Below, piece by piece: positions 6,192 through 29,758 of a stretch of DNA of 29,758 nucleotides. Origin of the DNA: a virus; IMG/VR virus record IMGVR_UViG_3300021373_000755, positions 1 to 29,758 of that record; one strand, written 5' to 3'. The notes under the pieces are model-generated. The model was not told the origin of the DNA, did not search any database, and was given only the letters and a program-made list of their open reading frames with translations. The translations under genes and the position numbers were made by a program. Positions within the stretch are counted from its first letter, which is position 1. Each line of letters begins with the position of its first letter.

Positions 6192-7130
6192 TTAAGAAGT
6201 AGATAGGTTTGTTATTTTTGCGTGGAACTGTTCTGGACCATATTCTAATCCAATTTCTCCATACACCTGGAACTTATAAGCTGCTCCAGATTGAGCCAAT
6301 GGCTCTACGAAGAAGTGTCCTTTTCCTGGAATATCCAAGAATACAGGCTTACAGAACGCAAGGTCAACAATAACAACATCATCAGCAGGAAGGTGTCTAT
6401 CAAAAACAATTCCAACTTGACCGAAGTCAGTTTCAATTGTAGTGATATTCACTCCACCAATGTTTCTATCCCTTGGTGCAAGAGCTAATGCACTTGAATA
6501 GATTGATGATAGTTTTTGCTTTTGGAAGCTGTTAGCCATAATAACTGGCATCTCAAATGGCGCACCTGAATCTGCCATTTGTTTTAGAGCATCCTCTACC
6601 TTAGCTTGGTCTAAAGCAGCAGCAGCTGCAGCAACTTCGTTTGTAGAGATAGCTTCTAAAAGCCCTCTAGTTTTTCTTTCTGTTGCCATATCTGTGTCTG
6701 CTACATAGGTACCTTGTAAGAAAGAGAACTCAATATCTCTTGCTGCTCTCTTCATAGCCATATCTAATTGGAAAGCCAATTCATCTTGAACTGGTTGATT
6801 TCCTATAATAGATTCGCCACTAAGGTTACCTGTTGCTGCTTGTTTTGTGTAAGAAACGTTAACACCATATTGCATAATTTGTGTAACGTTTGTTACTTCA
6901 CTTCTTGTTCTTTCTGCGTATGTTGGGTCTGCACCTTCTAATGCAACTGTTTGAGCAGCAGCAGCGTTATCTACTGTTTGCCAAGTGAATTGCTTAGAGG
7001 TAACTGATTTTCCACCAGTCATACCACCGATAGCAGAGAGAAAAGGTGTGTCGTTTGGGGTGACATTAAATAACTCACCCACGTAATTAGGAAGATCGTA
7101 TGAATCTCCCAATCCTGATACTGCACCCAT
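6192..7130 (-). CDS. Major capsid protein, SU10-like (DUF5309-type) HK97 fold
   Basis: A 312-aa protein. The N-terminal run NYVGELFNVTPNDTPFLSAI followed by GGMTGGK and a K-x-F-T-W-Q-T strand is characteristic of the SU10 / DUF5309 major capsid family. The middle segment MKRAARDIEFSFLQGTY and the C-terminal GKGHFFVEPLAQSGAAYKFQ also fit capsid-domain strands. It is the building block of the icosahedral shell. It follows the scaffold gene by 12 bp and has a strong ribosome site (AAGGAG). A hairpin follows its stop. The length is normal for the family and no maturation protease gene is visible nearby. Confidence 0.9.
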   Translation of the reverse strand: MGAVSGLGDSYDLPNYVGELFNVTPNDTPFLSAIGGMTGGKSVTSKQFTWQTVDNAAAAQTVALEGADPTYAERTRSEVTNVTQIMQYGVNVSYTKQAATGNLSGESIIGNQPVQDELAFQLDMAMKRAARDIEFSFLQGTYVADTDMATERKTRGLLEAISTNEVAAAAAALDQAKVEDALKQMADSGAPFEMPVIMANSFQKQKLSSIYSSALALAPRDRNIGGVNITTIETDFGQVGIVFDRHLPADDVVIVDLAFCKPVFLDIPGKGHFFVEPLAQSGAAYKFQVYGEIGLEYGPEQFHAKITNLSTS

Positions 7131-18678: not shown

Positions 18679-19073
18679 TATAAGTACTCTAGTAGGCTGT
18701 CATCTCCAGTTGCTAACCAGCTTTCGTATATAAAAGATTTTACTTCTTCTACTCCAGCTTCTTGTTGTGGTACAGGAGAAACACCAGCTCCAAAAGGTAA
18801 TCCTGCTGTGACAGGTTCGTTGGGTCTTTGTGTTCCAGCAAATACATCCATTTGTGGCATAGGTCGTGTTGGTCGTGGTTGTGCTTGTGTTGTCGTGTCT
18901 TTAGGCATACCAGTAACTTTAGCTTGTTCTTTTAATTGTTGACCTTCACCATAAGTAGTACCAGCTGTTAAACCAGGAATAAGACCTCTAGTGTTATCCT
19001 GCGTATTTCTAGCAGGTGGTGGTACATTAGTATTTCTTTTACTTATACCTTTATTACTCGGTGATCTCGCCAT
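18678..19073 (-). CDS. Pro/Gly-rich small protein of the portal region, 131 aa
   Basis: Starts MARSPSNKGISKRNTNVPPP. The first 100 residues are basic, Pro-, Gly- and Thr-rich and look disordered. The C-terminus (EEVKSFIYESWLATGDDSLL) is an acidic helix. I chose the ATG at 19073 because GAGG lies six bases upstream; an alternative TTG at 19094 would add seven residues. It overlaps the end of the 74-aa gene by 20 bp and couples to the giant gene by TAATG. Function unknown; a head-completion or portal-associated peptide is possible from position. Confidence 0.65.
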   Translation of the reverse strand: MARSPSNKGISKRNTNVPPPARNTQDNTRGLIPGLTAGTTYGEGQQLKEQAKVTGMPKDTTTQAQPRPTRPMPQMDVFAGTQRPNEPVTAGLPFGAGVSPVPQQEAGVEEVKSFIYESWLATGDDSLLEYL

Positions 19074-19278
19074 CTTCATCCTCTTCTTCTTCAAAAAATT
19101 GAAATGCTGAACTTATAACCATATAGCCAAATGGAAATACTAAAGGTGGAAGTTGGTCAATGTACATTTTGCCTCGTGGCTTAAATACATCTTCTTCTAA
19201 AATAATGTCATCACCAAGCTCATCAACATCTACTAGACAAAAATCTACTATTTCTTCAAATTTTTTATTAATTGACAT
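19054..19278 (-). CDS. Acidic small protein downstream of portal, 74 aa
   Basis: Two short hydrophobic patches (PPLVFPFGYMVISSAFQFF) and a very acidic C-terminus (EEEEDEDGEITE). It overlaps the portal stop at 19278 and the following gene by 20 bp. I do not recognise it. The acidic tail could bind a basic partner such as the Pro-rich protein that follows. Confidence 0.6.
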   Translation of the reverse strand: MSINKKFEEIVDFCLVDVDELGDDIILEEDVFKPRGKMYIDQLPPLVFPFGYMVISSAFQFFEEEEDEDGEITE

Positions 19279-21020
19279 TATCCACCTAATCCACCAAGTA
19301 GTTGAGCTATGCCTGGTGGAGGACCTTGTGGTGGCAAAGCACCTCCTCCAAGCAATTCTTGTTCAGCTGTTGGTATCTCTGGCTCTTCTGCTGTAAAGAA
19401 CTTATCTAAGATATTTTGCATATCATCAGGATTTTTCCTTATCTGCACAACAGCCATAGTTGCTTTAGCATCACCCTGTTGGGCTTGTGCTAACAATGTA
19501 TCAAACAATACACTGTCTGCTTTTTCTTTTGTAATTCTATCGTTAACTCTAACAAGGTTATCTAAACCATCTAGGTTTTCTTGTAGTGTTTGTCTATCAA
19601 TAATACCAGCTTGTAGTAACTGTAAACCAGTCACAATCTTCTGTGGTTCATCATATCCAGCCATAGCTCCATAGACTCTTCTTGTCTTGTAAGAACTAAT
19701 ATCTTTTCCTGGATCGTATGTTTCTGAATAAAAAGTATTGTCCATATAACCAGATAGTGATTTAGAATTACCACCATACATTTTTGCATCCCACTCTAAT
19801 CGTTTAGCATCAATCATCTCTATAGCATCAGACATAACTGTGTGATACTCTCTAATCATAAGTGACATAGATGCACCTAACTCTTCAAGTCCTCTACCAG
19901 TAGCAAATGCTAATGGTGACTGTGAATCATCAGTTGTAGGATAAGAACCACCAACACGAAGTTGTCGTTCTATTCTATCTATCTGTTGGAAAATTTGATA
20001 AGGAACATTAGATGCTGGTTTAGATACTTGTGTACCTGGAGCTAGATAGTTAACAGCGAATCTACCTTTACGATATTGTCCTGACTCTATCTCTCCAGAA
20101 ATGTTTGTTTCTGTAAACACGGCATCTTCCATTGCTATTATTGACATCACATTAATCTTTGCCATAGAAGCCATAAGTCCTATGATCTGGTCATACTGTC
20201 CTTGCAATCTATCAAAAGCAAATTTCTTTGCAATAACAAATGCAGGTCCACTATCAAGTGGATTTGGTATGAAGTCAAGAATAGTTGCAGAGGTCATATG
20301 AAAAATGTATGTACCTTCTTCATTGTAATACTCTGCTATTAAGTCGCCCTCACCATTTGAGTTTGCCCAAGAGCCGTTATAAGAATCTGTGTATGCAGAA
20401 GCATAAGCATTACCAACACCAAGAGTGTTTGTTTGATAAGGGTCTTTAGACATAATTTTGTCTGAAAACTTAGGATAAACTTTTGCTAAAGATTCTTTAG
20501 GTACTCTACGAACAATAGCCATTTCTTTTGGTTGTTGGTCTGCACCAAAGTAACCTGGGAAACAGTTGTATGGATCACGAAGTTCTGCACAAGGATATGG
20601 TGTTCCGTTAGCATCTCTCTTCTCTCTAATTACCCATACAGCAAAACCATAACCAGGTAACCATCTACCTACTTGTGGCATTTGTAAATCTAATTTTTGT
20701 ACCTCATCATAGGCATTAACAATTCTGCCAATCTTTTCAGCTTTCATTCTTGCTCTGTCAGAATCTTTACCATTAGGTACATCAACTTTTAAGTTAGGAA
20801 TACGACCAATCTTTTGTGACAAGTGTTCTAGTCCAGACATCATAAGGTTTGGTACAGGTACTTGCCAATCTTGGAAACCTTTAAGGTTATCTCCAAGCAA
20901 TGCTTGAATACCATCTGGTCCACCATTCATAATGGCACGAATACGACCACGAGTAGAGTATGCACTCTGGTTGTCAAAGTGTAATTGTGTTACTTGATAT
21001 TGTATTTCTTCAGGTGTCAT
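19278..21020 (-). CDS. Portal protein
   Basis: A 580-aa protein directly after the terminase. The N-terminus (MTPEEIQYQVTQLHFDNQSA) leads into PVPNLMMSGLEHLSQKIGRI and a wing-like core with ELRDPYNCFPGYF. A long helical region (FDRLQGQYDQIIGLMASMAK) and a stem/crown rich in Gln follow. The C-terminus is Pro- and Gly-rich. Length and architecture match portals of podo- and siphophages. It would form the dodecameric ring at one capsid vertex through which terminase packages DNA. It starts one base after the terminase stop. Confidence 0.85.
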   Translation of the reverse strand: MTPEEIQYQVTQLHFDNQSAYSTRGRIRAIMNGGPDGIQALLGDNLKGFQDWQVPVPNLMMSGLEHLSQKIGRIPNLKVDVPNGKDSDRARMKAEKIGRIVNAYDEVQKLDLQMPQVGRWLPGYGFAVWVIREKRDANGTPYPCAELRDPYNCFPGYFGADQQPKEMAIVRRVPKESLAKVYPKFSDKIMSKDPYQTNTLGVGNAYASAYTDSYNGSWANSNGEGDLIAEYYNEEGTYIFHMTSATILDFIPNPLDSGPAFVIAKKFAFDRLQGQYDQIIGLMASMAKINVMSIIAMEDAVFTETNISGEIESGQYRKGRFAVNYLAPGTQVSKPASNVPYQIFQQIDRIERQLRVGGSYPTTDDSQSPLAFATGRGLEELGASMSLMIREYHTVMSDAIEMIDAKRLEWDAKMYGGNSKSLSGYMDNTFYSETYDPGKDISSYKTRRVYGAMAGYDEPQKIVTGLQLLQAGIIDRQTLQENLDGLDNLVRVNDRITKEKADSVLFDTLLAQAQQGDAKATMAVVQIRKNPDDMQNILDKFFTAEEPEIPTAEQELLGGGALPPQGPPPGIAQLLGGLGG

Positions 21021-21021
21021 T

Positions 21022-22923
21022 CTAACTCCAAGGCGTTTCGTTCATATCAGTTATATCCCATTCTCCAAAACTTGGTTCATAATCTAATCCTACTTCAGCC
21101 AATCTTTCTTTTTGCATTCTTCTTATAACTTTCATTGGAAACCAAGAAGCCATAACAACATCTGACTTATTATTTCTACCAGACTGCTTACTAGCACCAG
21201 TAGAAAAATAAATTAGTTGCCTACGATATATATTACTCTTAGTTTCGCTTTCTGCACTACCATAAGGCAAACTTATTAATTGTTCCTTAAATAATTCTCT
21301 CATACTTCCTACGCCAAAGATAGGGTCAAATTTATTTTTTTGTGTCTGATGTCCTTCTAAGTAGATACCTACTCGTGAACAGTAATCTTTTAAATCTTTA
21401 TCTTGTCGTATCGCTCTCTGAAAACCATTCTCTTCAATAACCCAGTGTGCAAGTCCATACATCTCGTGCCATTTTTTTATGGTTTGTTTAGCTTGTATGA
21501 CACCACCACCTTCTTGGTTTTCTATATCAACCATATAAAGTTTTCCTGAATCAGAATCTATAGCCCATAAGAAACAAGCCTGATAACCTGTAGAAGCTGG
21601 GTCAAGTCCTGCTATCAAATGTGTTCCAGCAGGTACCTGCCCTACAACTCTATTTACATCTCTACAAACATCTATCTCTTCTACATCAAACATTGTTATA
21701 CCATCTACAAATGCTTTGTTAAGATACACCATCTCAAAGATAGCTTTACCACCTGTGGTTTCAGCTGCGTGTAATCTTGACAATAACCATTTGTAACTAC
21801 GCTTTCCTGCCCATAACATACAGTCAGTATGTAACTCAATTTCGTTCTCTGGCAGTACACACTCTGTACTATGTGCCTCTTCTACAATTGTGGTCATCTC
21901 TGGGTTTTCTAAAAGAAAGTTATATAAATCTTCAGGATGCTGTCTTGATCCAATAACAACAATAGCTGTATGTTCCTCTTTACGACTAGATAGTGTGGTT
22001 GTCCACCATTGTCTAGTCTGCTCTCTAGCACTAGGTTGTATAGTTGTTCCGTGGTCCTCAATGTCATCAGCAATAATTAAGTCACAGTCACGAGAAAGAA
22101 TCTTACCACCTTTACCAACAGCAACCATAGTTGGTGATTTAATACCAGTAACTGTTCTTGTAGCAGTAGTAAACTGTCCAGATGTCCAGGACTTACCTGA
22201 TCTATTCTTAGGTTTAAAGGTAGCTCCTGGTCCACAGAAATCCTCTATAAGTTTTTCATTATGTTCTAAGTGGTCAACTACAGCACCTACAGCATTCTTT
22301 GCAATCTCTTCGTTACCACCAACCCACATAATCCTGACATTAGGATTTTTACATATCTGCCATATAGCAAAGTGTGTTAATAAGTCAGTCTTGCCGTGTC
22401 GTGGTGGGCTAAGAATCATCTGTTCTCCACCAGTATCAATAGCACCTAAGATAGATTGAATCCAGCGTTGATGAAAGTCTGCTGTTTCGTACTTATCTCC
22501 TGTTTCTGTTTGGAAGTACCTATCTCTAAAATCTTCAAACTTTTGTAGTGAATCAATAGCCTCTTGTGGGGTTGACCAATCTTCTCGTTGTTCTGCATTT
22601 GTTTTATCTATGCGATAAGCATTGTGCATTTTGTTGACTATATCTTTAGCTACGCCTATAAGTCGTGCTACATCAGATTGTGTAATTGTTTTCTGCTCTA
22701 CTAGACTTGCATAATTTTCTACATAGTCTTTGTAGTGTTCACCACGATTTAATGTTGTTTCGTTTATATCTAGTTTATTAATAGCCTCTAAACGCTCACG
22801 CTCTTTAGCTCGTTTGTACTTAGCTCTATTAGAACATTGAGTAGAACAGTAACGACTATTACCATTCTTGATAGTAAATTTTTTCTCACATCCTGTATTG
22901 CTACATTGCTTACGCTCTGCCAT
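21022..22923 (-). CDS. Terminase large subunit with N-terminal zinc-finger and HTH extension
   Basis: A 633-aa protein. The ATPase has Walker A SPPRHGKT (172-179) and Walker B DLIIADD (281-287). The RNase-H-like nuclease has IAGLDPAST (D441), WVIEENG (E497/E498) and KSDVV (D588). It cuts and pumps phage DNA into the prohead. Residues 1-35 add a Cys4 site (C7, C12, C26, C30), and residues about 75-103 (TITQSDVARLIGVAKDIVNK) look like a helix-turn-helix. This DNA-binding front could replace a separate small terminase, none of which is visible upstream. Start overlaps the 43-aa gene as TAATG. Confidence 0.93.
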   Translation of the reverse strand: MAERKQCSNTGCEKKFTIKNGNSRYCSTQCSNRAKYKRAKERERLEAINKLDINETTLNRGEHYKDYVENYASLVEQKTITQSDVARLIGVAKDIVNKMHNAYRIDKTNAEQREDWSTPQEAIDSLQKFEDFRDRYFQTETGDKYETADFHQRWIQSILGAIDTGGEQMILSPPRHGKTDLLTHFAIWQICKNPNVRIMWVGGNEEIAKNAVGAVVDHLEHNEKLIEDFCGPGATFKPKNRSGKSWTSGQFTTATRTVTGIKSPTMVAVGKGGKILSRDCDLIIADDIEDHGTTIQPSAREQTRQWWTTTLSSRKEEHTAIVVIGSRQHPEDLYNFLLENPEMTTIVEEAHSTECVLPENEIELHTDCMLWAGKRSYKWLLSRLHAAETTGGKAIFEMVYLNKAFVDGITMFDVEEIDVCRDVNRVVGQVPAGTHLIAGLDPASTGYQACFLWAIDSDSGKLYMVDIENQEGGGVIQAKQTIKKWHEMYGLAHWVIEENGFQRAIRQDKDLKDYCSRVGIYLEGHQTQKNKFDPIFGVGSMRELFKEQLISLPYGSAESETKSNIYRRQLIYFSTGASKQSGRNNKSDVVMASWFPMKVIRRMQKERLAEVGLDYEPSFGEWDITDMNETPWS

Positions 22924-23054
22924 TATTTATTCTTAGGAAGTTTTTTTATCTTTCCATTTTCTGTTCTAGCAAACCTATGTGTCTTTGTTTCTCTACTAGG
23001 GATCAAGGTGCCACTATATCTTTTGCCACCCCACATCCAACTTACTTTAGCCAT
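22923..23054 (-). CDS. Small basic protein coupled to terminase, 43 aa
   Basis: Starts MAKVSWMWGGKRYSGTLIPS and ends in a Lys-rich tail. A strong ribosome site (GAGGAG) lies before the ATG, and its stop overlaps the terminase start as TAATG. It shares the strand and spacing of the late operon. Basic charge suggests nucleic acid binding, perhaps in packaging, but the family is unknown to me. Confidence 0.65.
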   Translation of the reverse strand: MAKVSWMWGGKRYSGTLIPSRETKTHRFARTENGKIKKLPKNK

Positions 23055-23063
23055 TCTCTCTCC

Positions 23064-23321
23064 TCACCAAGCTCTACACGACCAATATCGTGCAGTTGTT
23101 TTATCCTTAGCTGTGCTGCATTTGTGTCTAGCACGAAACGAAGCTCTAGCCTCTGGATTATTTTTCCTTATCTTCATATTAGGGTCACCAAACATTATTT
23201 TCTTGACTTTCCCATTTTTCATTACAAAGACTTTAGACTTCTTACGACCATAGCCAGGCTCACCCTTACGAATAGGGCTAGGTGAATTTAACTTCACTTT
23301 CATTCCTCGCCATTCAGCCAT
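23064..23321 (-). CDS. Conserved phage protein with FGDPNMKIR...ARYWSCRAW signature, 85 aa
   Basis: Basic protein whose middle and end (KIMFGDPNMKIRKNNPEARA, SFRARHKC, TTARYWSCRAW) match a signature I have seen in small proteins of many marine phages, where it is usually left without a function. C68 and C82 could form a metal site or disulphide with neighbouring His. Its TGA stop lies inside the ribosome site of the 43-aa gene, so the two are coupled. Placed next to packaging genes. Confidence 0.75.
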   Translation of the reverse strand: MAEWRGMKVKLNSPSPIRKGEPGYGRKKSKVFVMKNGKVKKIMFGDPNMKIRKNNPEARASFRARHKCSTAKDKTTARYWSCRAW

Positions 23322-23386
23322 TACTTCCTCTTCTTAACTTTATTTTTTTTCATCCCTTTTTTAGGGTTGTAACCTTTTTTTGGCAT
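23321..23386 (-). CDS. Very basic micropeptide, first gene of the late operon, 21 aa
   Basis: A 21-codon frame, 11 of whose residues are Lys or Arg (starts MPKKGYNPKKG). AGGAG stands before the ATG and the stop overlaps the next start as TAATG, so it looks translated. It lies 25 nt after the predicted start of the late transcript. It may bind DNA or RNA, or serve only to load ribosomes on the operon. Confidence 0.55.
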   Translation of the reverse strand: MPKKGYNPKKGMKKNKVKKRK

Positions 23387-23395
23387 TGTATCTCC

Positions 23396-23401
23396 TATAC
23401 T
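23396..23401 (+). promoter_or_regulatory. Rightward -10 element for a leaderless zinc-finger gene
   Basis: TATACT ends 10 bases before the ATG at 23411, so the transcript would begin at or near the start codon. There is no ribosome site. No good -35 is seen. Confidence 0.4.
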
Positions 23402-23410
23402 ATATGTTGT

Positions 23411-23617
23411 ATGAGTGATTATATCAAAGGAAAACAATATCCTAATCATAAACCCTCTACTACATATAGTAGTGGAAGAGTCTGCGTTCACAAAGAATGC
23501 CAGACAGTTATTTCAAAATACAATAAATTTAAGTACTGTAATAAACACAAACCTCGCTCTTATCCTAGAATTAAAGGTCGCCAAGCTCCTACTGATTTAC
23601 AAGATCCAGTGGGGTAA
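23411..23617 (+). CDS. Cx4C...CxxH zinc-finger protein, 68 aa
   Basis: Basic protein with CVHKEC, then TVISKYNKFKYCNKHKP (C25, C30, C43, H46). This C-x4-C-x-TVxSxYN-x-x-x-YC-x-x-H arrangement is one I associate with small actinobacterial and actinophage finger proteins. Probably a DNA-binding regulator or adaptor. It is the first rightward gene and probably leaderless. Its 5' end overlaps the leftward late promoter (-10 at 23418-23423), so its transcription and that of the late operon would interfere. A frame starting further left is spurious. Confidence 0.7.
   Translation: MSDYIKGKQYPNHKPSTTYSSGRVCVHKECQTVISKYNKFKYCNKHKPRSYPRIKGRQAPTDLQDPVG
23418..23423 (-). promoter_or_regulatory. Leftward late promoter, -10 element
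   Basis: Minus strand TATAAT (perfect) with a weak TTAGGA 16 bp upstream. Predicted start near 23411 gives a leader of about 25 nt with AGGAG before the 21-aa gene. The two divergent promoters overlap. Confidence 0.5.
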
Positions 23618-23629
23618 AAAAAATTTTTT

Positions 23630-23746
23630 TTATTCTATAACTATATCTACAGTGCAAGTAGGGCATAAACCATTGCTATCTAGCTGATCTTCCCAATGTG
23701 GGTTCCAACACTGCTCACAGTCCACTACAGGTATATCATCATTCAT
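23630..23746 (-). CDS. Zinc-ribbon microprotein, 38 aa
   Basis: Two knuckles, CEQC (C10, C13) and CPTC (C28, C31), separated by 14 residues with Trp and His, and acidic ends. Such spacing is diagnostic of a rubredoxin-like zinc ribbon. It converges with the 68-aa gene; an A8T8 tract (23616-23631) separates their stops. TATAGT (23753-23758 on the minus strand) lies six bases before the ATG and there is no ribosome site, so it is probably leaderless. Confidence 0.6.
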   Translation of the reverse strand: MNDDIPVVDCEQCWNPHWEDQLDSNGLCPTCTVDIVIE

Positions 23747-23763
23747 AAAAAGACTATACCATA

Positions 23764-23783
23764 CCCTAGACTAGGAGCTAGGG
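23764..23783. promoter_or_regulatory. Inverted repeat CCCTAG...CTAGGG
   Basis: Perfect 6-bp arms around an 8-nt centre, just upstream of the -10 of the 38-aa gene. A possible operator. The same arms form the terminator at 26318-26352. Confidence 0.35.
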
Positions 23784-23852
23784 ATTTTGGGTTAATCACA
23801 AACAGGGAAGTGTTTTTGATACTTTATTATAAACCAGATTAGAAAGTAAGTC

Positions 23853-23881
23853 AATAAACAAAACCCCGTATTGCTACAGGG
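23853..23881 (-). terminator. Strong intrinsic terminator of the minus-strand RNA unit
   Basis: On the minus strand CCCTGTA, loop GCAA, TACGGGG, then TTTTGTTTATT. Seven base pairs (one T-G wobble), a GNRA tetraloop and a U-tract. Confidence 0.8.
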
Positions 23882-24059
23882 CTTTGTACACGTACAGTCT
23901 GTCCATTTACTGTAATGAAAAATATAACAATCCACAAAAACATCTCACCTTAAACAATACCTTCAAGTACACCACATACTTAAATTTTGATGAAAAGCCT
24001 TTCTTTCTTATTATAAATTGAAGCATATCCTCATATGCTGCACCTAGTCTTTCTAGGTA
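23853..24059 (-). ncRNA. Putative stand-alone structured small RNA, about 205 nt
   Basis: A promoter with correct spacing (24065-24093) would start transcription near 24059, exactly at the first of several hairpins. In order these are ACCTAG/CTAGGT (24058-24042), AGCATAT/ATATGCT (24039-24022, loop GAGG), an AAGTAT/GTACTT stem, an ACAGT/ACTGT stem and the terminator (23881-23853). The unit lies in a gap free of convincing long genes. A 30-codon frame (23943-23851, hydrophobic start MFLWIVIFFITVNG after AAGG) lies in its 3' half, but its stop falls beyond the U-tract, which argues against it. It could be a regulator, a decoy or a host-targeting RNA. I do not recognise the family. Confidence 0.5.
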
Positions 24060-24064
24060 CTTGC

Positions 24065-24093
24065 ATATTAGTTAAGTTGTGATACTATGACAA
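24065..24093 (-). promoter_or_regulatory. Promoter of the minus-strand small RNA
   Basis: Minus strand TTGTCA (24093-24088), 17-bp spacer, TAATAT (24070-24065). The predicted start lies 6-7 bases further, at the first hairpin. Confidence 0.6.
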
Positions 24094-24173
24094 CAACAAA
24101 CAAAACATTTCTCTAGCTCTAAGGAAAGGAATGTTGGATCAACACTAAAGGGAACGTGGACTAGCTGGACCAT
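24072..24173 (-). CDS. Possible Cys-rich microprotein, 33 aa
   Basis: ATG at 24173 opens MVQLVHVPFSVDPTFLSLEL and ends with CFVCCCH. It has no ribosome site and its 3' end covers the small-RNA promoter. The CxxC-like end fits the theme of the region, and codons such as GTC, CAC and CCC differ from the AT-rich neighbours. Could be a chance frame. Confidence 0.25.
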   Translation of the reverse strand: MVQLVHVPFSVDPTFLSLELEKCFVCCCHSITT

Positions 24174-24183
24174 CTTAACTAGG

Positions 24184-24198
24184 GTAATAGCCTATTAC
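24184..24198. promoter_or_regulatory. Perfect inverted repeat GTAATAG-C-CTATTAC
   Basis: 15-bp near-palindrome in the non-coding region, 10 bp upstream of the possible 33-aa gene. Resembles a dimeric repressor operator. Nearby arms TAGTTAAG (24069-24076) and CTTAACTA (24174-24181), and AACATT/AATGTT, add to the density of inverted repeats here. Confidence 0.35.
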
Positions 24199-24300
24199 TT
24201 CACATATTTATTTGTTACTATTTTTAGTTCATTCTGGTTTTGGGAGGGAGTGACACAGGGTTAGAACCACAATAAAGAAACTACAACTAGAATAAACATT

Positions 24301-24414
24301 ATGAAATGCACAGAGTGTAAACAACCACTCAAACAGATCAGAGATAACACTTATTACTGTATTAGTAGTATTACTAACTGTAGTTTATCTACCAAGACAG
24401 TGCATATTTCTTAG
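24301..24414 (+). CDS. Zinc-ribbon microprotein, 37 aa
   Basis: Starts MKCTECKQPLKQIRDNTYYC. C3, C6, C20 and C27 give CxxC-x13-C-x6-C, a common zinc-ribbon spacing. TAGAAT seven bases before the ATG and the lack of a ribosome site suggest a leaderless transcript. It closely resembles the start of the 38-aa protein at 25764 (MSCTECKKEL). Confidence 0.55.
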   Translation: MKCTECKQPLKQIRDNTYYCISSITNCSLSTKTVHIS

Positions 24415-24476
24415 TAAAAGTTTCCAAGGATTTACTGGTGTGTTACGCTACGCTTAGGCACACAAAAGATTGATAT

Positions 24477-24515
24477 TTGCATTCTTTTATATCTAAGTAC
24501 AGATATCTAATGCAA
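24477..24515. repeat. Interrupted inverted repeat TTGCATT / AATGCAA
   Basis: Outer arms TTGCATT (24477-24483) and AATGCAA (24509-24515) and inner arms ATATCT (24489-24494) and AGATAT (24501-24506) around a 6-nt loop. Candidate RNA hairpin or protein binding site. No U-tract follows on either strand. Confidence 0.55.
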
Positions 24516-24627
24516 CATAATGGATATTATAGGACAAGTATTTTAAGGGTTTATTGCTAAGTTATACAGAAATACAAGCTAATAAAACTATATAGATTAT
24601 TTTTTTTGGTTTATTGGGTGTAGTGGT

Positions 24628-24656
24628 TTGGAATGAGAGAGCGACACTAATATAAT
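24628..24656 (+). promoter_or_regulatory. Main early promoter candidate
   Basis: TTGGAA (24628-24633), 17-bp spacer, perfect TATAAT (24651-24656). It is flanked by TGAGAG (24634-24639) and CTCTCA (24669-24674), and more widely by GTGTAG (24618-24623) and CTACAC (24696-24701), which may be operators. Start near 24663 gives a leader of about 160 nt. Confidence 0.6.
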
Positions 24657-24769
24657 TTTAGAAGATTACTCTCATAACATCCTTCAGGTTATCCTCTACA
24701 CTTCACAACAATAACCAACTAAAAGAAATATAATTAAGATCCCCAGTAAAAGAAATCTAATTAAATAAT

Positions 24770-24796
24770 TTGTATTACTTCTGTAATGTGTATACT
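24770..24796 (+). promoter_or_regulatory. Second early promoter candidate
   Basis: TTGTAT, 15-bp spacer, TATACT (24791-24796). Start near 24803, with AAAGGG before the ATG at 24822. The spacer is short. Confidence 0.4.
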
Positions 24797-24821
24797 AAAG
24801 GTTACAAACATAAAGGGATAA

Positions 24822-25148
24822 ATGGAAAATTTATTAACAACTACAAAAAATGTATATAACTTTAAAAACAAGTTGTATATTACTTGTAATTGTAATGGTT
24901 GGGCAGAACACAACAGAAATAAAAGTTGTGGTCAATGTGTCCGTATACCTAATAAAAATCATTTGTTTTCTAATGTAAAAGAAATCACTAAGAATGATTT
25001 CTTAAAAAGAATACGCAGAAATTCTAAAGCTTATGAAAAAGAATTATTTCTTACTTTATCAAGTTTAGAGTTAACTGGGCAGTTAGCTGTAGAAGGTCAA
25101 AATATTTTGAAAATGTTACAGCTACATAATCCTAATCTGCATATATAA
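24822..25148 (+). CDS. Early protein with CxC...CxxC knuckles, 108 aa
   Basis: Residues 19-41 contain YITCNCNGWAEHNRNKSCGQ and another Cys (C22, C24, C36, C39, with H30), a likely zinc site. The rest is a basic helical region (NDFLKRIRRNSKAYEKELFL). The N-terminal site plus basic helices suggests nucleic acid binding. First gene after the early promoters; ribosome site AAAGGG. I do not recognise the family. Confidence 0.7.
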   Translation: MENLLTTTKNVYNFKNKLYITCNCNGWAEHNRNKSCGQCVRIPNKNHLFSNVKEITKNDFLKRIRRNSKAYEKELFLTLSSLELTGQLAVEGQNILKMLQLHNPNLHI

Positions 25149-25163
25149 AATAAAGGGGAAGTA

Positions 25164-25367
25164 ATGAAAAATGAATCTAACAAGTGTGTAACTTGTAACA
25201 AAAAAATAAAAGGTAATTATTTTTTTATATACTGGGACTACTATCACGATAATAATAAATGTTTAGATTTTCATTATACAAAAGAAGAATATAATGAATT
25301 ATTTGATAGTGAAGAAAATGAAGATAAACAATTTGTTTATTGGTCACAATTAGAAGAAAGCGAGTAA
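25164..25367 (+). CDS. Early acidic protein with CxxC motif, 67 aa
   Basis: Begins MKNESNKCVTCNKKIKGNYF. C8 and C11 with C33 and H37 could form a zinc site; the C-terminus is acidic (ELFDSEENEDKQFVYWSQLE). Good ribosome site (AGGGGAAG). Three bases separate its stop from the next start, so they form one operon. Unknown family. Confidence 0.65.
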   Translation: MKNESNKCVTCNKKIKGNYFFIYWDYYHDNNKCLDFHYTKEEYNELFDSEENEDKQFVYWSQLEESE

Positions 25368-25370
25368 GTA

Positions 25371-25685
25371 ATGGCGATAACAAAAAATGTTAATTGGTGG
25401 GATTTTAGAAACTCATTTAAAGATAGTAGGGCAGATAGTTTCTCATCCGAGGGATTATATGCTTTATATAATTACTTTAATGATTTAAGCGAGGATATTG
25501 GCGAAGATATAGAGCTTGATGTAATAGCCATCTGTTGTGACTTTACTGAGTACGACAGCTTAGAAGAAGCATTAGAGCAATATGACGATATAAATACTTA
25601 TGACCAGTTAGAGCAACATACAAGCATATTAAATATATCAATGTTTTTTGATAATCATAAAGGTATTATTATCCAAGCATTTTAG
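25371..25685 (+). CDS. Conserved acidic phage protein (ELDVIAICCDFTEY), 104 aa
   Basis: Acidic, helical protein. SSEGLYALYNYFNDLSEDIG and IELDVIAICCDFTEYDSLEE, ending IIIQAF, match a small-protein family I recall from diverse phages and mobile elements, usually uncharacterised. Acidic character is compatible with a DNA-mimic anti-defence role, but there is no direct evidence. Weak ribosome site; likely coupled to the 67-aa gene. Confidence 0.7.
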   Translation: MAITKNVNWWDFRNSFKDSRADSFSSEGLYALYNYFNDLSEDIGEDIELDVIAICCDFTEYDSLEEALEQYDDINTYDQLEQHTSILNISMFFDNHKGIIIQAF

Positions 25686-25693
25686 ACAGTTAG

Positions 25694-25721
25694 GCACTCT
25701 ATTTCTTTTGTTGTAGGGTGC
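25694..25721 (+). terminator. Hairpin GCACTCTA...TAGGGTGC after the 104-aa gene
   Basis: Eight base pairs (one T-G) around a 12-nt loop, followed by TTATAGTGTTT. Weak terminator or attenuator. Its left arm overlaps a TTAGGCAC motif, and a second copy stands at 25738-25745. Confidence 0.45.
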
Positions 25722-25763
25722 TTATAGTGTTTAAAAGTTAGGCACTAAAGGGAGGTTAATTAA

Positions 25764-25880
25764 ATGAGTTGTACAGAGTGCAAAAAAGAATTAAATAGTT
25801 ATGAATATTTTTTGAGTAGACATAATATTTGTGATAAGTGCAGGGCTAAAATATGGAAGGAGCACGGGTTAAATGTTTAG
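25764..25880 (+). CDS. Zinc-ribbon microprotein, 38 aa
   Basis: Starts MSCTECKKELNSYEYFLSRH and has CDKC at 23-26. CxxC-x16-CxxC is a zinc ribbon. Ribosome site GGAGG lies nine bases upstream, within a GGTTAATTAA element. The last eight bases overlap the next gene. Similar to the 37-aa protein at 24301. Confidence 0.65.
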   Translation: MSCTECKKELNSYEYFLSRHNICDKCRAKIWKEHGLNV

Positions 25881-26016
25881 TTTAGAAGGGTTAATAATAA
25901 CAATCGGTTTTATAATCGTGTTACGTGTGGCTATTGTAGGCACATTAGATCAAGTAAGAGATTACAGAATGATTAAAGAATATAAAAGACTATTTCCAAA
26001 AGTATGGGGTAAGTAA
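25873..26016 (+). CDS. Small single-span membrane protein, 47 aa
   Basis: Residues 4-26 (LEGLIITIGFIIVLRVAIVG) form a membrane helix with one Arg; the rest is basic and cytoplasmic-looking (VRDYRMIKEYKRLFPKVWGK). It overlaps both neighbours (8 bp before, TAATG after), so it is coupled. It could act on the host membrane early in infection. It contains a TGTAGGCACAT motif encoding IVGT. Confidence 0.6.
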   Translation: MFSLEGLIITIGFIIVLRVAIVGTLDQVRDYRMIKEYKRLFPKVWGK

Positions 26017-26204
26017 TGATAATAGAAACTAAAGAAGAATTTAATAGAATACATAATGAAATTACTACACATAACAACAAGAAAAATATTAAATATTATA
26101 AGGTGTTATGTCGTTTATGTATGTGTATAAATAAAATTAATTTAGCTTATGTAGATGAAATTAATTATTGTTTAGATTGCGATTATATTTTAGGGGGGAA
26201 GTAA
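26016..26204 (+). CDS. Zinc-ribbon protein, 62 aa
   Basis: Thirty residues of charged helix (MIIETKEEFNRIHNEITTHN) precede CRLCMC (C32, C35, C37) and CLDC (C52, C55). CxxC-x16-CxxC is a zinc ribbon. Overlaps both neighbours as TAATG. Unknown target. Confidence 0.65.
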   Translation: MIIETKEEFNRIHNEITTHNNKKNIKYYKVLCRLCMCINKINLAYVDEINYCLDCDYILGGK

Positions 26205-26296
26205 TGCAAAAATGTAAATATTGTAAAAATAAAATAGAATATATAGATGATTTGAATATATGCCATTATTGCTATGTAAATATATATAGTAAATAA
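26204..26296 (+). CDS. Minimal zinc-ribbon peptide, 30 aa
   Basis: Starts MQKCKYCKNKIEYIDDLNIC. CKYC (4-7) and CHYC (20-23) separated by 12 residues leave almost nothing but the metal knuckles. GGGGGGAAG precedes the overlapping TAATG start. Last gene before a strong terminator. Confidence 0.6.
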   Translation: MQKCKYCKNKIEYIDDLNICHYCYVNIYSK

Positions 26297-26317
26297 ATAG
26301 TAACTAACAACAAGATT

Positions 26318-26352
26318 AAGCCCTAGTTTTACCCTTTTAGCTAGGGTTTTTT
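26318..26352 (+). terminator. Intrinsic terminator of the first early operon
   Basis: CCCTAG (26321-26326) and CTAGGG (26341-26346), extended by AAG/TTT wobble and A-T pairs to about nine bp, with a 14-nt loop, then TTTTTTC. Confidence 0.75.
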
Positions 26353-26374
26353 CTATGGATCAGTATAACTAAAG

Positions 26375-26480
26375 TGTAGGCACATACCGACTATGCAGCG
26401 ATATTGTAGGCACATAAAAAATGTAGGTTAATAACTTGCATTGTGTAACATAGTAGTTACAATGTAGGTAGGTTAATTAA
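26375..26480 (+). promoter_or_regulatory. Cluster of TGTAGG motifs upstream of the second early operon
   Basis: TGTAGGCACAT at 26375-26385 and 26405-26415, TGTAGGTTAAT at 26422, ATGTAGGTAGG near 26462 and GGTTAATTAA at 26471-26480, all on one strand. They could be binding sites for a phage regulator or iterons of an origin. Confidence 0.45.
26436..26463 (+). promoter_or_regulatory. Promoter of the second early operon
   Basis: TTGCAT, 16-bp spacer, TACAAT (26458-26463). The start near 26470 leaves a leader of about 23 nt with GAGAGGAAG before the ATG at 26493. Follows the terminator at 26318. Confidence 0.45.
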
Positions 26481-26492
26481 AGAGAGGAAGAT

Positions 26493-26687
26493 ATGAAAAC
26501 ATTAACACTTAAACAAGTAGATAAGAAATATGGAAATCAGTATTTTGATTTGCATAAATTACCTAGTTGGAAAAAAACTAATAGAAATGATGATGACCTT
26601 TATGAAGTTATAGGTATAAGCGAAGTTATTAGAGAAAATTATAACGACATAAATTATTACTACAATAAAGAAAGTGTAGGCAAGTAA
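26493..26687 (+). CDS. Early hypothetical protein, 64 aa
   Basis: Charged, Tyr- and Asn-rich (MKTLTLKQVDKKYGNQYFDL...; NYNDINYYYNKESVGK). No Cys, no membrane segment. Good ribosome site (GAGAGG) downstream of a GGTTAATTAA element. Stop overlaps the next start (TAATG). A TGTAGGCA motif lies in its last codons (SVGK). Unknown family. Confidence 0.6.
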   Translation: MKTLTLKQVDKKYGNQYFDLHKLPSWKKTNRNDDDLYEVIGISEVIRENYNDINYYYNKESVGK

Positions 26688-26866
26688 TGATTGTTAACAA
26701 TAGTGATTTTATGTCATTGGTTTGTGATATAGCTGATGATATTGTAGATAATAAAACAACAGATTTTAATTCTACATACGATCAAATAGAAGATAAATTA
26801 ATAACAACTTTTAATTTAGAAAGATTAGAAGATAATAATTGGTTAATTAAAGAGGAGGAAGAATAA
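26687..26866 (+). CDS. Early acidic hypothetical protein, 59 aa
   Basis: Starts MIVNNSDFMSLVCDIADDIV and ends NWLIKEEEE. Very acidic and helical. Coupled on both sides by TAATG. Its 3' end includes GGTTAATTAAAGAGGAGG, which is also the ribosome site of the next gene. The acidity could suit a DNA mimic or inhibitor, but that is speculation. Confidence 0.6.
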   Translation: MIVNNSDFMSLVCDIADDIVDNKTTDFNSTYDQIEDKLITTFNLERLEDNNWLIKEEEE

Positions 26867-27087
26867 TGTTCGCAGTAACAACTAAAGAATGTATACATTG
26901 TAGGCAGACAGGTACAGTTATGGTAGATAGAAGAGCTTATAGAGAGTTTACTCAAACACCACGACACCTTAGAAGATTGATCCAAGATATATTTCCAGAT
27001 CATAGCAAAGAACAAAGAGAGCAGCTGATGACAGGTGTACACCCAGAATGTTTTGAGGAAATGTTCAGAGGAGAGGGAGAACAATAA
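26866..27087 (+). CDS. Actinophage-type CxxC...HPEC protein, 73 aa
   Basis: CIHC (C9, C12) followed by a Val-rich strand, then LIQDIFPDHSKEQREQLMTG and HPECFEEMF (H59, C62). The order CxxC, strand, LIQDxxPDxSxxxREQLxxGxHxEC closely matches a small-protein family I recall as widespread in actinobacteriophages and of unknown function. C9, C12, H59 and C62 probably bind zinc. Strong GAGGAGG ribosome site. Confidence 0.75.
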   Translation: MFAVTTKECIHCRQTGTVMVDRRAYREFTQTPRHLRRLIQDIFPDHSKEQREQLMTGVHPECFEEMFRGEGEQ

Positions 27088-27095
27088 AGTCAAAT

Positions 27096-27119
27096 AAGTT
27101 TACACGCTATTGTAAACTT
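27096..27119. promoter_or_regulatory. Perfect inverted repeat AAGTTTACA-N6-TGTAAACTT
   Basis: Nine-bp perfect arms in the gap before the 62-aa gene, with TATACT (27125-27130) immediately downstream. Best read as an operator over a promoter; as RNA it would be a weak, AT-rich hairpin. Confidence 0.55.
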
Positions 27120-27147
27120 CTGTTTATACTGTAATGAAAGGTTATTA

Positions 27148-27336
27148 ATGGTAAAAATTGATATGCCACGAGATTGTAGGCAGATAGTCGTAGCTTTTAA
27201 TCGTAGCTTTCGTATCTTCCCTAGCACAAGCGAGGTAGAAAGATATTGTAGGCGAAATAGATTAGAAGTAGTCAGCCAAGAAAATCAAATGGGATCATTC
27301 ATTGTCACTCTTAAAAGAGCAGACAGTACAATATAA
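27148..27336 (+). CDS. Early basic hypothetical protein, 62 aa
   Basis: MVKIDMPRDCRQIVVAFNRS then FRIFPSTSEVERYCRRNRLE and a final strand GSFIVTLKR. Basic, mixed alpha/beta, compatible with nucleic acid binding. AAGG ribosome site. Two TGTAGGC motifs lie in the gene and encode DCRQ and YCRR. Likely controlled by the inverted repeat upstream. Unknown family. Confidence 0.6.
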   Translation: MVKIDMPRDCRQIVVAFNRSFRIFPSTSEVERYCRRNRLEVVSQENQMGSFIVTLKRADSTI

Positions 27337-27362
27337 ACACAACTAAATAACAGAAAGGAATT

Positions 27363-27482
27363 ATGTTTAGTAAATTAATATATAGATACAAGTTCTATAA
27401 ACGAGTACGCTTAGAAGAACAACAACGGAAATCACAGGGATTATCACAGGAATTTTTAGACCAGATCAGAAAGGATATGTAA
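27363..27482 (+). CDS. Basic micropeptide, 39 aa
   Basis: Starts MFSKLIYRYKFYKRVRLEEQ and ends DQIRKDM. Amphipathic, basic helix. AAAGGA ribosome site six bases upstream and TAATG coupling to the HTH gene argue that it is real. Unknown role. Confidence 0.55.
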   Translation: MFSKLIYRYKFYKRVRLEEQQRKSQGLSQEFLDQIRKDM

Positions 27483-27730
27483 TGGATGACTTATTAGAAC
27501 AGGCACAAGAGAACATCAGCGAGAATGTAGACAAGCAAGAGAAAGAGAAACTTTATTTGGTACTGCAAGAGAGCTTGAATGAGCTATCAGGATTAGAAGA
27601 ACTTAATAAAACATACAAAGAGTTAAGAGATAAGGCAATAAAAGACCTATACAATGTAGGCATATCAGCACAGTCATTAGCAACGACTACTGAATTAACT
27701 AGACAAATGATACATAGGATTGTTAAGTAA
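27482..27730 (+). CDS. Helix-turn-helix protein, 82 aa
   Basis: An acidic coiled N-terminal half (MDDLLEQAQENISENVDKQE onward) leads into AIKDLYNVGISAQSLATTTE and LTRQMIHRIVK, a C-terminal helix-turn-helix of the kind found in resolvase tails and small regulators. Probably a dimeric DNA-binding regulator. A TGTAGGCATAT motif encodes NVGI within it. Coupled to the 39-aa gene. Confidence 0.65.
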   Translation: MDDLLEQAQENISENVDKQEKEKLYLVLQESLNELSGLEELNKTYKELRDKAIKDLYNVGISAQSLATTTELTRQMIHRIVK

Positions 27731-27732
27731 AC

Positions 27733-27752
27733 AACCTCTATTGCTAGAGGTT
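27733..27752 (+). terminator. Hairpin AACCTCTA-TTGC-TAGAGGTT
   Basis: Perfect 8-bp stem with a 4-nt loop, right after the HTH gene stop. The 3' flank is not U-rich, so it may be an attenuator or weak terminator. The following ~100 bp contain only a doubtful TTG-started 23-aa frame (27778-27849). Confidence 0.5.
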
Positions 27753-27831
27753 ATCTACTTCAGAAAGGAAATAAACATTGAATAATTTGTTTATCAGTTT
27801 CATTGTAGTAGATATTGTCAGACTTAGTAAC

Positions 27832-27837
27832 TATAAT
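27832..27837 (+). promoter_or_regulatory. -10 element before the Rad52-like gene
   Basis: Perfect TATAAT followed by GTAGG, with AGGAG before the ATG at 27860. No well-spaced -35 is visible. The flanking AATGTAGG repeats that after the promoter at 26458. Confidence 0.35.
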
Positions 27838-27859
27838 GTAGGAAAATAGGAGATAAATA

Positions 27860-28795
27860 ATGAATAAAGAAACACAGAAGAAGTTGATTAAAGACTTCCC
27901 AAAGAATGTAATTAACAAAGCACCACAAGGTAAGTTTGGAGATTACATAAGTCACGGCATTATCACTAAGAGATTAGTTGATGTAGCACCAGACTATAAC
28001 TTCACATACGAAGTGTTGAGAGATAAAGACAACGCTATTGTAGGTGCAAAGTGTAGGTTAGAAATCCCTGGACTAGGTATCAAAGAAGATGTAGGAGATG
28101 TAGATGTACACGCTGTTAAGCGTAACTTAACTGAAAGCGAACTACTTAAACTTGCAGTTTCAGATGGTATTAAGCGTTGTGCTATGAGATTTGGATTAGG
28201 TTTAGACCAACTCTGGAATGGTGGCGTAACAGAAGAAGAACATTACTCTGCACCACAACCAATGGAAAAGACAGGTACTGTTAAAGATCAAGTCATAGAA
28301 AAAGAAGATGAGTTAGCTAAAGCGAAACAAGACTTTGCTAAAGATGTAGCTGATAATCCTAATAACAAGCAAGAGTTAGCAAAGTTTATGGATGCAACTA
28401 TAAAAGACAAAGCTAAAAGAGATAAGCTAAAGCGTAAAGTCTATGATGATGTAGTGTCAAAAGGATTTCCAAAAGATATTAATGAATGGGATGAATCACA
28501 AATAGAAATATATAAAGATGAAGTCTTTAATGCTAATGAAGATAAGTTACCAGACACAACAGAGGCAGAGGAAATTTTAGGTGCAAAGGTTACCTATACT
28601 GGACCTCCAACTGATGAGAACAAAGTATGTCCTAGTTGTACTGATAAAGGTAGCGTTGTAGATAACAGAGATAAGAAATCTGATCCTAAGTTCTCTAAGA
28701 TACCAGACTTTGCTTGTCAGAAAGCACCTTATGGTAGTGGCTGTGGTTGGGCTGCTTGGTCAGGTAACGAATCAATACCAAGCGAATGGATTTAG
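27860..28795 (+). CDS. Rad52-like single-strand annealing protein with C-terminal zinc ribbon
   Basis: A 311-aa protein. Residues 20-120 (GKFGDYISHGIITKRLVDVA through TESELLKLAVSDGIKRCAMR and FGLGLDQLW) match the Rad52/22-like annealing fold, including the A-x-S-D-G-I-K-R-x-x-x-R-F-G-L-G helix. Residues 140-240 are a charged linker. C257, C260, C286 and C295 (CPSC, FACQK, GCGWAAW) form a zinc ribbon like those ending some actinophage recombination proteins. It should pair complementary single strands in phage recombination or replication. Its stop overlaps the next start by 10 bp. Confidence 0.65.
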   Translation: MNKETQKKLIKDFPKNVINKAPQGKFGDYISHGIITKRLVDVAPDYNFTYEVLRDKDNAIVGAKCRLEIPGLGIKEDVGDVDVHAVKRNLTESELLKLAVSDGIKRCAMRFGLGLDQLWNGGVTEEEHYSAPQPMEKTGTVKDQVIEKEDELAKAKQDFAKDVADNPNNKQELAKFMDATIKDKAKRDKLKRKVYDDVVSKGFPKDINEWDESQIEIYKDEVFNANEDKLPDTTEAEEILGAKVTYTGPPTDENKVCPSCTDKGSVVDNRDKKSDPKFSKIPDFACQKAPYGSGCGWAAWSGNESIPSEWI

Positions 28796-29091
28796 AACGA
28801 GCAGGGGAATCTATAAACATAGAGAAACTTAAAGCTAGGTTGCAAAAAAGATTTCCTGATTATAACTTTGATGTACCTGCACCACCAGATACTAAATGCA
28901 AAGCACCATTTTATTGCGAACAGAACGAGATTAAATATTCAGATATGGAGGGCAATCTTTACTGTGGTTATAGGTATAAGCTGACTGATGAGAAGAATCC
29001 ATTTACTTGGGAATGGAAAGTATGTCACGCTTTACTAGAGCCAGTAGATATACAAGCCAAACATAAGGAAGATGAGGTGGAACTATTTTAA
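28786..29091 (+). CDS. Early protein with four spaced Cys, 101 aa
   Basis: N-terminal basic helix (NIEKLKARLQKRFPDYNFDV), then TKCKAPFYC, LYCGYRYK and WKVCHALLEP (C38, C44, C60, C80), a possible metal site. Starts inside the Rad52-like gene, so probably made in concert with it and perhaps assists it. Unknown family. Confidence 0.6.
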   Translation: MDLERAGESINIEKLKARLQKRFPDYNFDVPAPPDTKCKAPFYCEQNEIKYSDMEGNLYCGYRYKLTDEKNPFTWEWKVCHALLEPVDIQAKHKEDEVELF

Positions 29092-29210
29092 AATGTTTAA
29101 GTTGTAATATAGGTGAGCTTGATCTGTTCGGTGAGCCAAGCCACATAGTAAATGGTTATTGCGAAGAATGTAGAAAGGTAATGGAATATGCAAACACAAA
29201 TTATAAATAG
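29085..29210 (+). CDS. Zinc-ribbon microprotein with a non-canonical start, 41 aa
   Basis: The frame reads KCLSCNIGELDLFGEPSHIV then NGYCEECRK (C4, C7, C26, C29 counting from 29085). CxxC-x18-CxxC matches the other ribbons here. No ATG, GTG or TTG lies between the upstream in-frame stop (29073-29075) and the first CxxC. ATT at 29085 has GAGGTGG five bases before it. Alternatives are a -1 frameshift from the 101-aa gene near CTATTTTAA, or a sequencing error. It overlaps the end of the 101-aa gene and the start of the 135-aa gene. Confidence 0.45.
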   Translation: MLKCLSCNIGELDLFGEPSHIVNGYCEECRKVMEYANTNYK

Positions 29211-29595
29211 ACTAAATGAACTTTATCCAAATATGGATAAGCTACAAGAAACAGAAGATCCATTTTGTTCTTATGATGCAATGAATGACACATACATTGT
29301 AGAGATTAAGTCAAGAGATAAGACATATGACAGTTGGATAATAGAGAAGAAGAAATTTGATTCTAATATTATCAAAGCTATTGAGGAGAACAAGTCTTTT
29401 ATTTATCTTACTGAATGCAACGGTAAGGTTATGACTTGGAATATTAATAGAATGATTGCAGCTGAATATGATTTCAAATGGGAGCTTAGAGATATGCCTT
29501 CCACTACAGAGTTTGACAACAATCATATGATAAGTAAAGAAGTAGGGTATCTGTTTGAAGCAGATGCTAAAGTACATACAAAGGAGATATTATGA
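29188..29595 (+). CDS. Probable PD-(D/E)XK-type nuclease, 135 aa
   Basis: DPFCSYDAMNDTYIVEIKSR holds D30, D34, E39 and K41 in the D...ExK pattern of this fold. It is followed by TYDSWIIEKKKFDSNIIKAI and a strand FIYLTECNGKVMTWNI. I recall small phage proteins with this order annotated as PD-(D/E)XK nucleases. Next to a Rad52-like annealing protein it could supply a recombination nuclease. Small size and partial motif leave some doubt. Stop overlaps the next start (ATGA). Confidence 0.55.
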   Translation: MQTQIINRLNELYPNMDKLQETEDPFCSYDAMNDTYIVEIKSRDKTYDSWIIEKKKFDSNIIKAIEENKSFIYLTECNGKVMTWNINRMIAAEYDFKWELRDMPSTTEFDNNHMISKEVGYLFEADAKVHTKEIL

Positions 29596-29758
29596 TAGAC
29601 ACAATGTTAAGCAAAGCAACAGAAGGTATGTTGATTGCAGAGTTACTAAACAGAAAAAATGAGAAAGGTGTTCCATTCTTTATGGGTAAAAGCATATTGT
29701 TAACTAATGGACAACAACAACTACTAGCAATTCTTCCTAACATACAGATACTTACAAC
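29592..29758 (+). CDS. Early protein, partial (C-terminus off the right edge)
   Basis: 55 residues are visible, starting MIDTMLSKATEGMLIAELLN. AAGGAG lies seven bases before the ATG, and the start overlaps the nuclease stop. The visible part is mixed alpha/beta (FFMGKSILLTNGQQQLLAIL). Too little to name. Confidence 0.65.
   Translation, partial: MIDTMLSKATEGMLIAELLNRKNEKGVPFFMGKSILLTNGQQQLLAILPNIQILT

Follow-up and report, generated by a model that had tools for sequence, protein, structure and literature searches.

We found that the early region of an IMG/VR virus record, analysed here over its whole stretch of 29,758 bases (hereafter the window), carries an array of the heptamer TGTAGGC, which is enriched, lies in one orientation, is confined to the early region, has a consensus in its flanks and co-occurs with one early gene cassette. 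We presume, at somewhat less than an even chance, that the array consists of oriented regulator-binding sites controlling early transcription in a stoperator-like manner. This reading is supported because the enrichment is one-oriented, is not due to codon use, is specific to certain variants and comes with flanks common to independent sites, and because a tandem pair is conserved, the array is linked to a cassette, related phages have an alternative site type (GTTTAAAC) and stoperators provide a precedent. All observations also fit a signal acting at the RNA level, except for the pair of copies located 5' of a putative promoter, and such a signal is the strongest rival. Among three papers containing the word, none describes TGTAGGC as a phage motif.

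Genome organization and relatives

The structural genes of the window are on the - strand, with the major head protein gene at 6192-7130 and the terminase large subunit gene at 21022-22923 (both - strand), and the small early genes form a block on the + strand together with the gene of a single-strand annealing protein (SSAP; Rad52/Erf-like; 27860-28795, + strand), the landmark of the early region. Relatives were collected via the SSAP, genes 27148 and 26866, and the 30-bp TGTAGGC pair described below; many matches to the pair pattern came from unrelated contigs of higher GC content and were discarded as chance. Window positions 19000-29758 gave no whole-genome DNA match among deposited phages, no known RNA families were found in the early region, and the host search against bacterial genomes returned a single weak match. 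The best matches of the terminase are Streptomyces phages, and gene 26866 matches Actinomycetia phage DSL-LC01, Rhodococcus phages and Gordonia phages; these two sets of matches weakly indicate an actinobacterial host. The product of 26866-27087 is a 73-aa CxxC...HPEC protein, very conserved and also present in actinobacterial phages. No match to a tyrosine integrase (PF00589) was found in 10 incomplete records, and no L5-type repressor or lysogeny gene was identified. In one relative, a small ORF located 3' of the early genes (L003:12009-12311) resembles a SET-domain protein by eye.

Abundance, strand and position of TGTAGGC

The first-pass annotation placed TGTAGGC at 25935, 26375, 26405, 26675, 26899, 27175, 27247 and 27655, all on the + strand, and expected such a heptamer less than once here. 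Indeed, every coordinate is exact, no reverse complement occurs in the 29,758-base window, and the 8 copies seen stand against 0.08 expected in a 1.8-kb span. When all 7-mers were scanned in spans of this length, no other word of the window was as clustered as TGTAGGC (Poisson tail 6e-14); the next-lowest unrelated 7-mers reached a Poisson tail of ~1e-10, which points to an imperfect null, but TGTAGGC still stands out. The heptamer is absent from 1-25 kb of the window and from the late genes, and the array is limited to ~2-3 kb of the early operon, where the copies are irregularly spaced. Exact copies number 5-8, all in the early region, and G001, the longest array record, has at most one TGTAGGC outside it. 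Two window copies (26375 and 26405) are outside genes and the other six are intragenic, in different reading frames as had been proposed: the VG frame at 25935, 26675 and 27655, and the CR frame at 26899, 27175 and 27247.

Words of the form TTAGGCAC had been grouped with the heptamer as its relatives at 24454, 25690 and 25738. They are present at these positions, together with one more on the - strand (1724-1731), and they are probably a separate phenomenon, because the word at 25690 forms an arm of an RNA hairpin. This hairpin (25689-25724) has a long, nearly perfect stem with the arms TTAGGCACTCTA and TGTAGGGTGCTTA, and L131 retains it (as observed in L018, the same contig).

Leader block, gene junctions and intragenic copies

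The two non-coding copies belong to a tandem block on the + strand, which runs in the order intrinsic terminator (26331-26352; stem 26331-26347 plus a T run), TGTAGGC twice (26375-26381 and 26405-26411), TGTAGGT twice (26422-26428 and 26463-26469), ribosome site and start codon. The terminator is kept in relatives and is the only terminator-like site detected in 25600-27900. A possible promoter, TTGCAT-N16-TACAAT (26436-26463, + strand), is weakly suggested, by conservation in the block alignment only, and was not detected by the consensus promoter scan; the second TGTAGGT overlaps its putative -10. The 30-bp-spaced TGTAGGC pair between the terminator and a variable downstream gene is kept in ~12 relatives, including the divergent L036 (44-52% protein identity), and one tandem unit has been lost in L004, apparently through deletion between the repeats.

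The copy at 26675-26681 (+ strand; GAAAGTGTAGGCAAGTAATG) is located at a gene junction, at the end of ORF 26493-26687 and just 5' of ORF 26687-26866. Across the group, ~10 small genes that are unrelated to one another have the junction element GAAAGTGTAGG[G/T/C]AAGTAATG, or a sequence close to it, in front of them, and the window copy at 26675 is one such case. In the relatives L127, L156, L158, L032, L126, L027 and L036, GAAAGTGTAGG[G/T]AAGTAATG (in L036, GAAAGTGTAGGTTAATCAATG) stands before many unrelated small ORFs, which suggests swapped gene cassettes.

The remaining copies, all on the + strand, are located in the small ORF 25873-26016 (25935-25941, ..AIVGT..; a homologous copy is found in 12 subgroup genomes), in ORF 26866-27087 (26899-26905, CIHCRQTG), twice in ORF 27148-27336 (27175-27181, RDCRQ; 27247-27253, RYCRR) and in ORF 27482-27730 (27655-27661, NVGIS). 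A TGTAGGA variant (27837-27843, + strand) comes right after TATAAT, 5' of the SSAP gene. We also observed a perfect inverted repeat, AAGTTTACA-CGCTAT-TGTAAACTT, at 27097-27119, just 5' of ORF 27148-27336 and also present in L018; it is a possible operator or attenuator.

We infer action on DNA, protein binding and a block of transcription. TGTAGGC would be the core of an asymmetric ~15-bp site, ANAN-TGTAGG[C>T,G]-RNAT, set in one orientation along the + early operon and read by a DNA-binding protein, which may be phage-coded or supplied by the host. At the leader block (26331-26470) and near the SSAP start the site would serve as an operator on initiation, while at junctions and inside genes it would slow or block elongation in an orientation-dependent way, so that the whole early operon could be turned down or silenced together.

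The main alternative, which we consider rather unlikely, is that UGUAGGC in early mRNA is a target of a sequence-specific endoribonuclease, a site for an RNA-binding translational repressor or a start-associated translation sequence. The motif is on the sense strand only and in early genes only, many TGTAGG[G/T/C] sequences at junctions place their AGG ~5-9 nt 5' of the start codon, the A-rich 3' side resembles the RegB sequence GG*AGRAYARAA (PMC3014915), and the one-orientation start-associated sequences of Cluster K offer a precedent (PMC3203893), all of which agree with an RNA-level signal. However, the pair 26375/26405 and the variants at 26463 and 27837 are in DNA that appears to be promoter rather than transcribed, and the strictest form of the motif (C at position 7) is mostly intragenic and not at starts. 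Further, unpairedness at the motif is not out of the ordinary (0.38 vs 0.48 at random positions), and an RNA hairpin context was rejected on this ground.

Recurrence of the motif in related phages

A second alternative to the regulator-site array is ordinary descent, in which the copies would be parts of conserved genes, of junction sequence copied by recombination and of a conserved leader, and would share no function; we regard this as unlikely. Most copies per relative genome indeed occupy homologous places, and the junction element precedes many unrelated ORFs, as descent would have it. At homologous coding places, 9/15 motif codons are invariant vs 83/183 other codons, and the 26899 copy has been lost in several sister lineages, either synonymously (TGCAGG, TGTAGA) or with an amino-acid change (TGTGGG, TGTAAG, TGTATG). 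Coding-position conservation was rejected as functional evidence, being no better than that of other codons and lost where the protein changes. The conservation in related phages that the first-pass annotation had proposed as a check is found at many homologous places, but it proves little about function alone.

Against descent, the relatives have another 10-12 copies at non-homologous places, and the - strand has none. Within the trimmed early regions of 15 array relatives, we counted 88 TGTAGGC copies on the + strand and 0 on the - strand, and after merging of copies with similar flanks 16-18 mutually non-homologous + sites and 0 - sites were left, vs ~2.2 independent sites expected under a second-order Markov model. 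The same early regions gave a mean of 1.5 and a maximum of 8 sites for 419 permutations of the TGTAGGC letters, and an equal amount of sister phage sequence contained 3 + and 4 - TGTAGGC sites. Synonymous-codon shuffling of the early genes of the window predicted 0.61 coding copies, and the 6 seen were reached in 0/4000 shuffles; TGTAGGC was the top-ranked 7-mer by this measure, at a nominal value of 1e-4 that is not decisive alone, since thousands of words were tested. Each array genome tested had 4-6 coding copies vs 0.3-0.8 expected, although these genomes are not mutually independent, and the sister genomes had 0-1. Codon use as the cause of the excess was rejected on the basis of the synonymous shuffling. 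The excess of independent copies, the excess over shuffled codons and the shared flanks across frames and settings support the earlier proposal of selection at the level of DNA or RNA and not of protein.

TAGCCGA is over-represented as well in the early region of the array relatives (8 separate + sites vs 0.4 expected), and at 6613-6635 of L036 it forms part of a hairpin.

Structure of the site

The consensus of the independent sites is A-N-A-N-TGTAGGC-R-N-A-T and is asymmetric. The position next after the heptamer (position 8) is A or G in 18/18 independent sites, position 10 is A in 15/18, position 11 is T in 13/18, position -4 is A in 14/18 and position -2 is A in 12/18. From the TATxAAT-like upstream step that had been described earlier, only the A at -4 and the A at -2 hold up. 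Of all single-base changes to the heptamer, just two, TGTAGGT and TGTAGGG, are likewise raised, and in the divergent L036 TGTAGGT is the commoner form in genes (9 vs 2.0 expected).

This structure bears on a third alternative, that each copy supplies a weak early promoter, one of many, with its -10 end, its discriminator and its start site (xAxAxT-GTAGGC-R). The T at 1, the A at -4 and the purine at 8 fit the -10/+1 spacing, and TATAAT or TACAAT is directly 5' of GTAGG at 26463, at 27837, and in L036 and L127; but TA occupies the first two -10 positions in only ~5/19 sites, no -35 was seen at the coding copies, and the promoter scan gave no excess (12 found vs 13.5 expected), which makes a promoter part very unlikely. 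T7-like phage promoters were tentatively set aside: the late genes have no copies, and no match to a PF00940 polymerase was found, though the control search was equally silent. Of the roles first put forward, a regulator site and an RNA-processing signal remain, while a replication, recombination (chi-like) or packaging site is extremely improbable: the orientation bias and the nearby annealing protein would suit it, but the confinement to ~2-3 kb and the irregular spacing speak against a chi-like or origin site, and a primer site fits the confinement equally poorly.

Cassette accompanying the array

All array genomes spanning the region have the same cassette type 27148/27363/27482, with identities to the window of 91-100% (27148), 97-100% (27363) and 71-100% (27482); the L036 cassette has 44% (27148) and 52% (27482). 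The array tracks this cassette and not the SSAP, because L131 and L019, with an SSAP of 41-43% identity, have the window-type cassette and the array, whereas L009 and L129, with an SSAP of 82-83% identity, have a different cassette and no array. The co-occurrence of array and cassette is partly plain linkage. The 62-aa ORF (27148-27336, + strand) gave a confident small beta-beta-alpha-beta-beta model that matched no known folds, the 39-aa ORF (27363-27482, + strand) is present in 10/11 array genomes and 0/22 others, and the 82-aa ORF (27482-27730, + strand) is predicted to form a long helix with a C-terminal HTH-like tail (mean pLDDT 84), with weak fold and profile matches. This HTH-like protein is only a candidate for binding the TGTAGGC site. 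The site itself, TGTAGGCANAT as a duplex and TGTAGGCACAT in its 30-bp duplex form, is a defined sequence for fishing out the regulator.

Alternative dispersed sites in sister phages

Sister phages sharing gene 26866 and an SSAP (L128, L134, L138, L140, L141, L145, L147, L148, L150, L152, L157 and L017) have no TGTAGGC array and contain 11-31 GTTTAAAC copies per record (~1 expected). The GTTTAAAC sites number 8-21 per locus, have the consensus RGGTTGTTTAAACARGGA and in some cases overlap start codons, and most of their flanks point the same way (66 forward, 19 reverse, 12 ties). The TGTAGGC array and the GTTTAAAC sites never occur together, and some relatives are without either. It is possible, though on the doubtful side, that this is a phage group, probably actinobacterial, with exchangeable dispersed-site systems (TGTAGGC plus cassette; RGGTTGTTTAAACARGGA; neither), each having its own regulator and being mutually exclusive like heteroimmune stoperator groups. 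Dispersed, oriented phage control sites are understood for only a small number of groups, chiefly the mycobacteriophages. If a single uncultured phage group has two alternative types of site, systems of this kind would be more widespread than is currently recognized and exchangeable among close relatives.

Comparison with known systems

Previous studies of mycobacteriophages described asymmetric one-orientation repressor sites, at promoters and along the genome, with a consensus that varies by phage group (PMC9283540, PMC6550527, PMC3029335). Like the stoperators of Cluster A (L5, Bxb1), the TGTAGGC site is short, asymmetric and present in many copies in one orientation along transcription (PMC3029335, PMC6550527, PMC9283540), some sites are in promoter-like or start regions, and the site type varies between related phages. 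The stoperator, however, is a 13-mer such as GGTGGMTGTCAAG, whereas the core here is TGTAGGC, and 20-30 mainly intergenic stoperators are found genome-wide, in contrast to 5-8 sites in the early region, with 6/8 window copies in ORFs. The array is therefore described here only as stoperator-like.

Cluster K mycobacteriophages possess one-orientation start-associated sequences (SAS) (PMC3203893). The likeness is a one-orientation repeat 5' of the start codons of unrelated genes, which the copy at 26675 and the TGTAGG[G/T] junctions of the relatives fit; the SAS (GGGATAGGAGCCC) are almost only at starts, whereas TGTAGGC is mostly elsewhere, and 26675 is the only start copy in the window. T4 RegB cleaves GGAG in early mRNA (GG*AGRAYARAA), within coding sequence too (PMC3014915). 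Like the TGTAGGC sites, its sites are found in early genes on the sense strand, both at ribosome sites and, in some cases, in coding sequence, and have an A-rich 3' flank. Unlike the RegB sites, the TGTAGGC sites have a longer core and are also located in an apparently untranscribed leader block.
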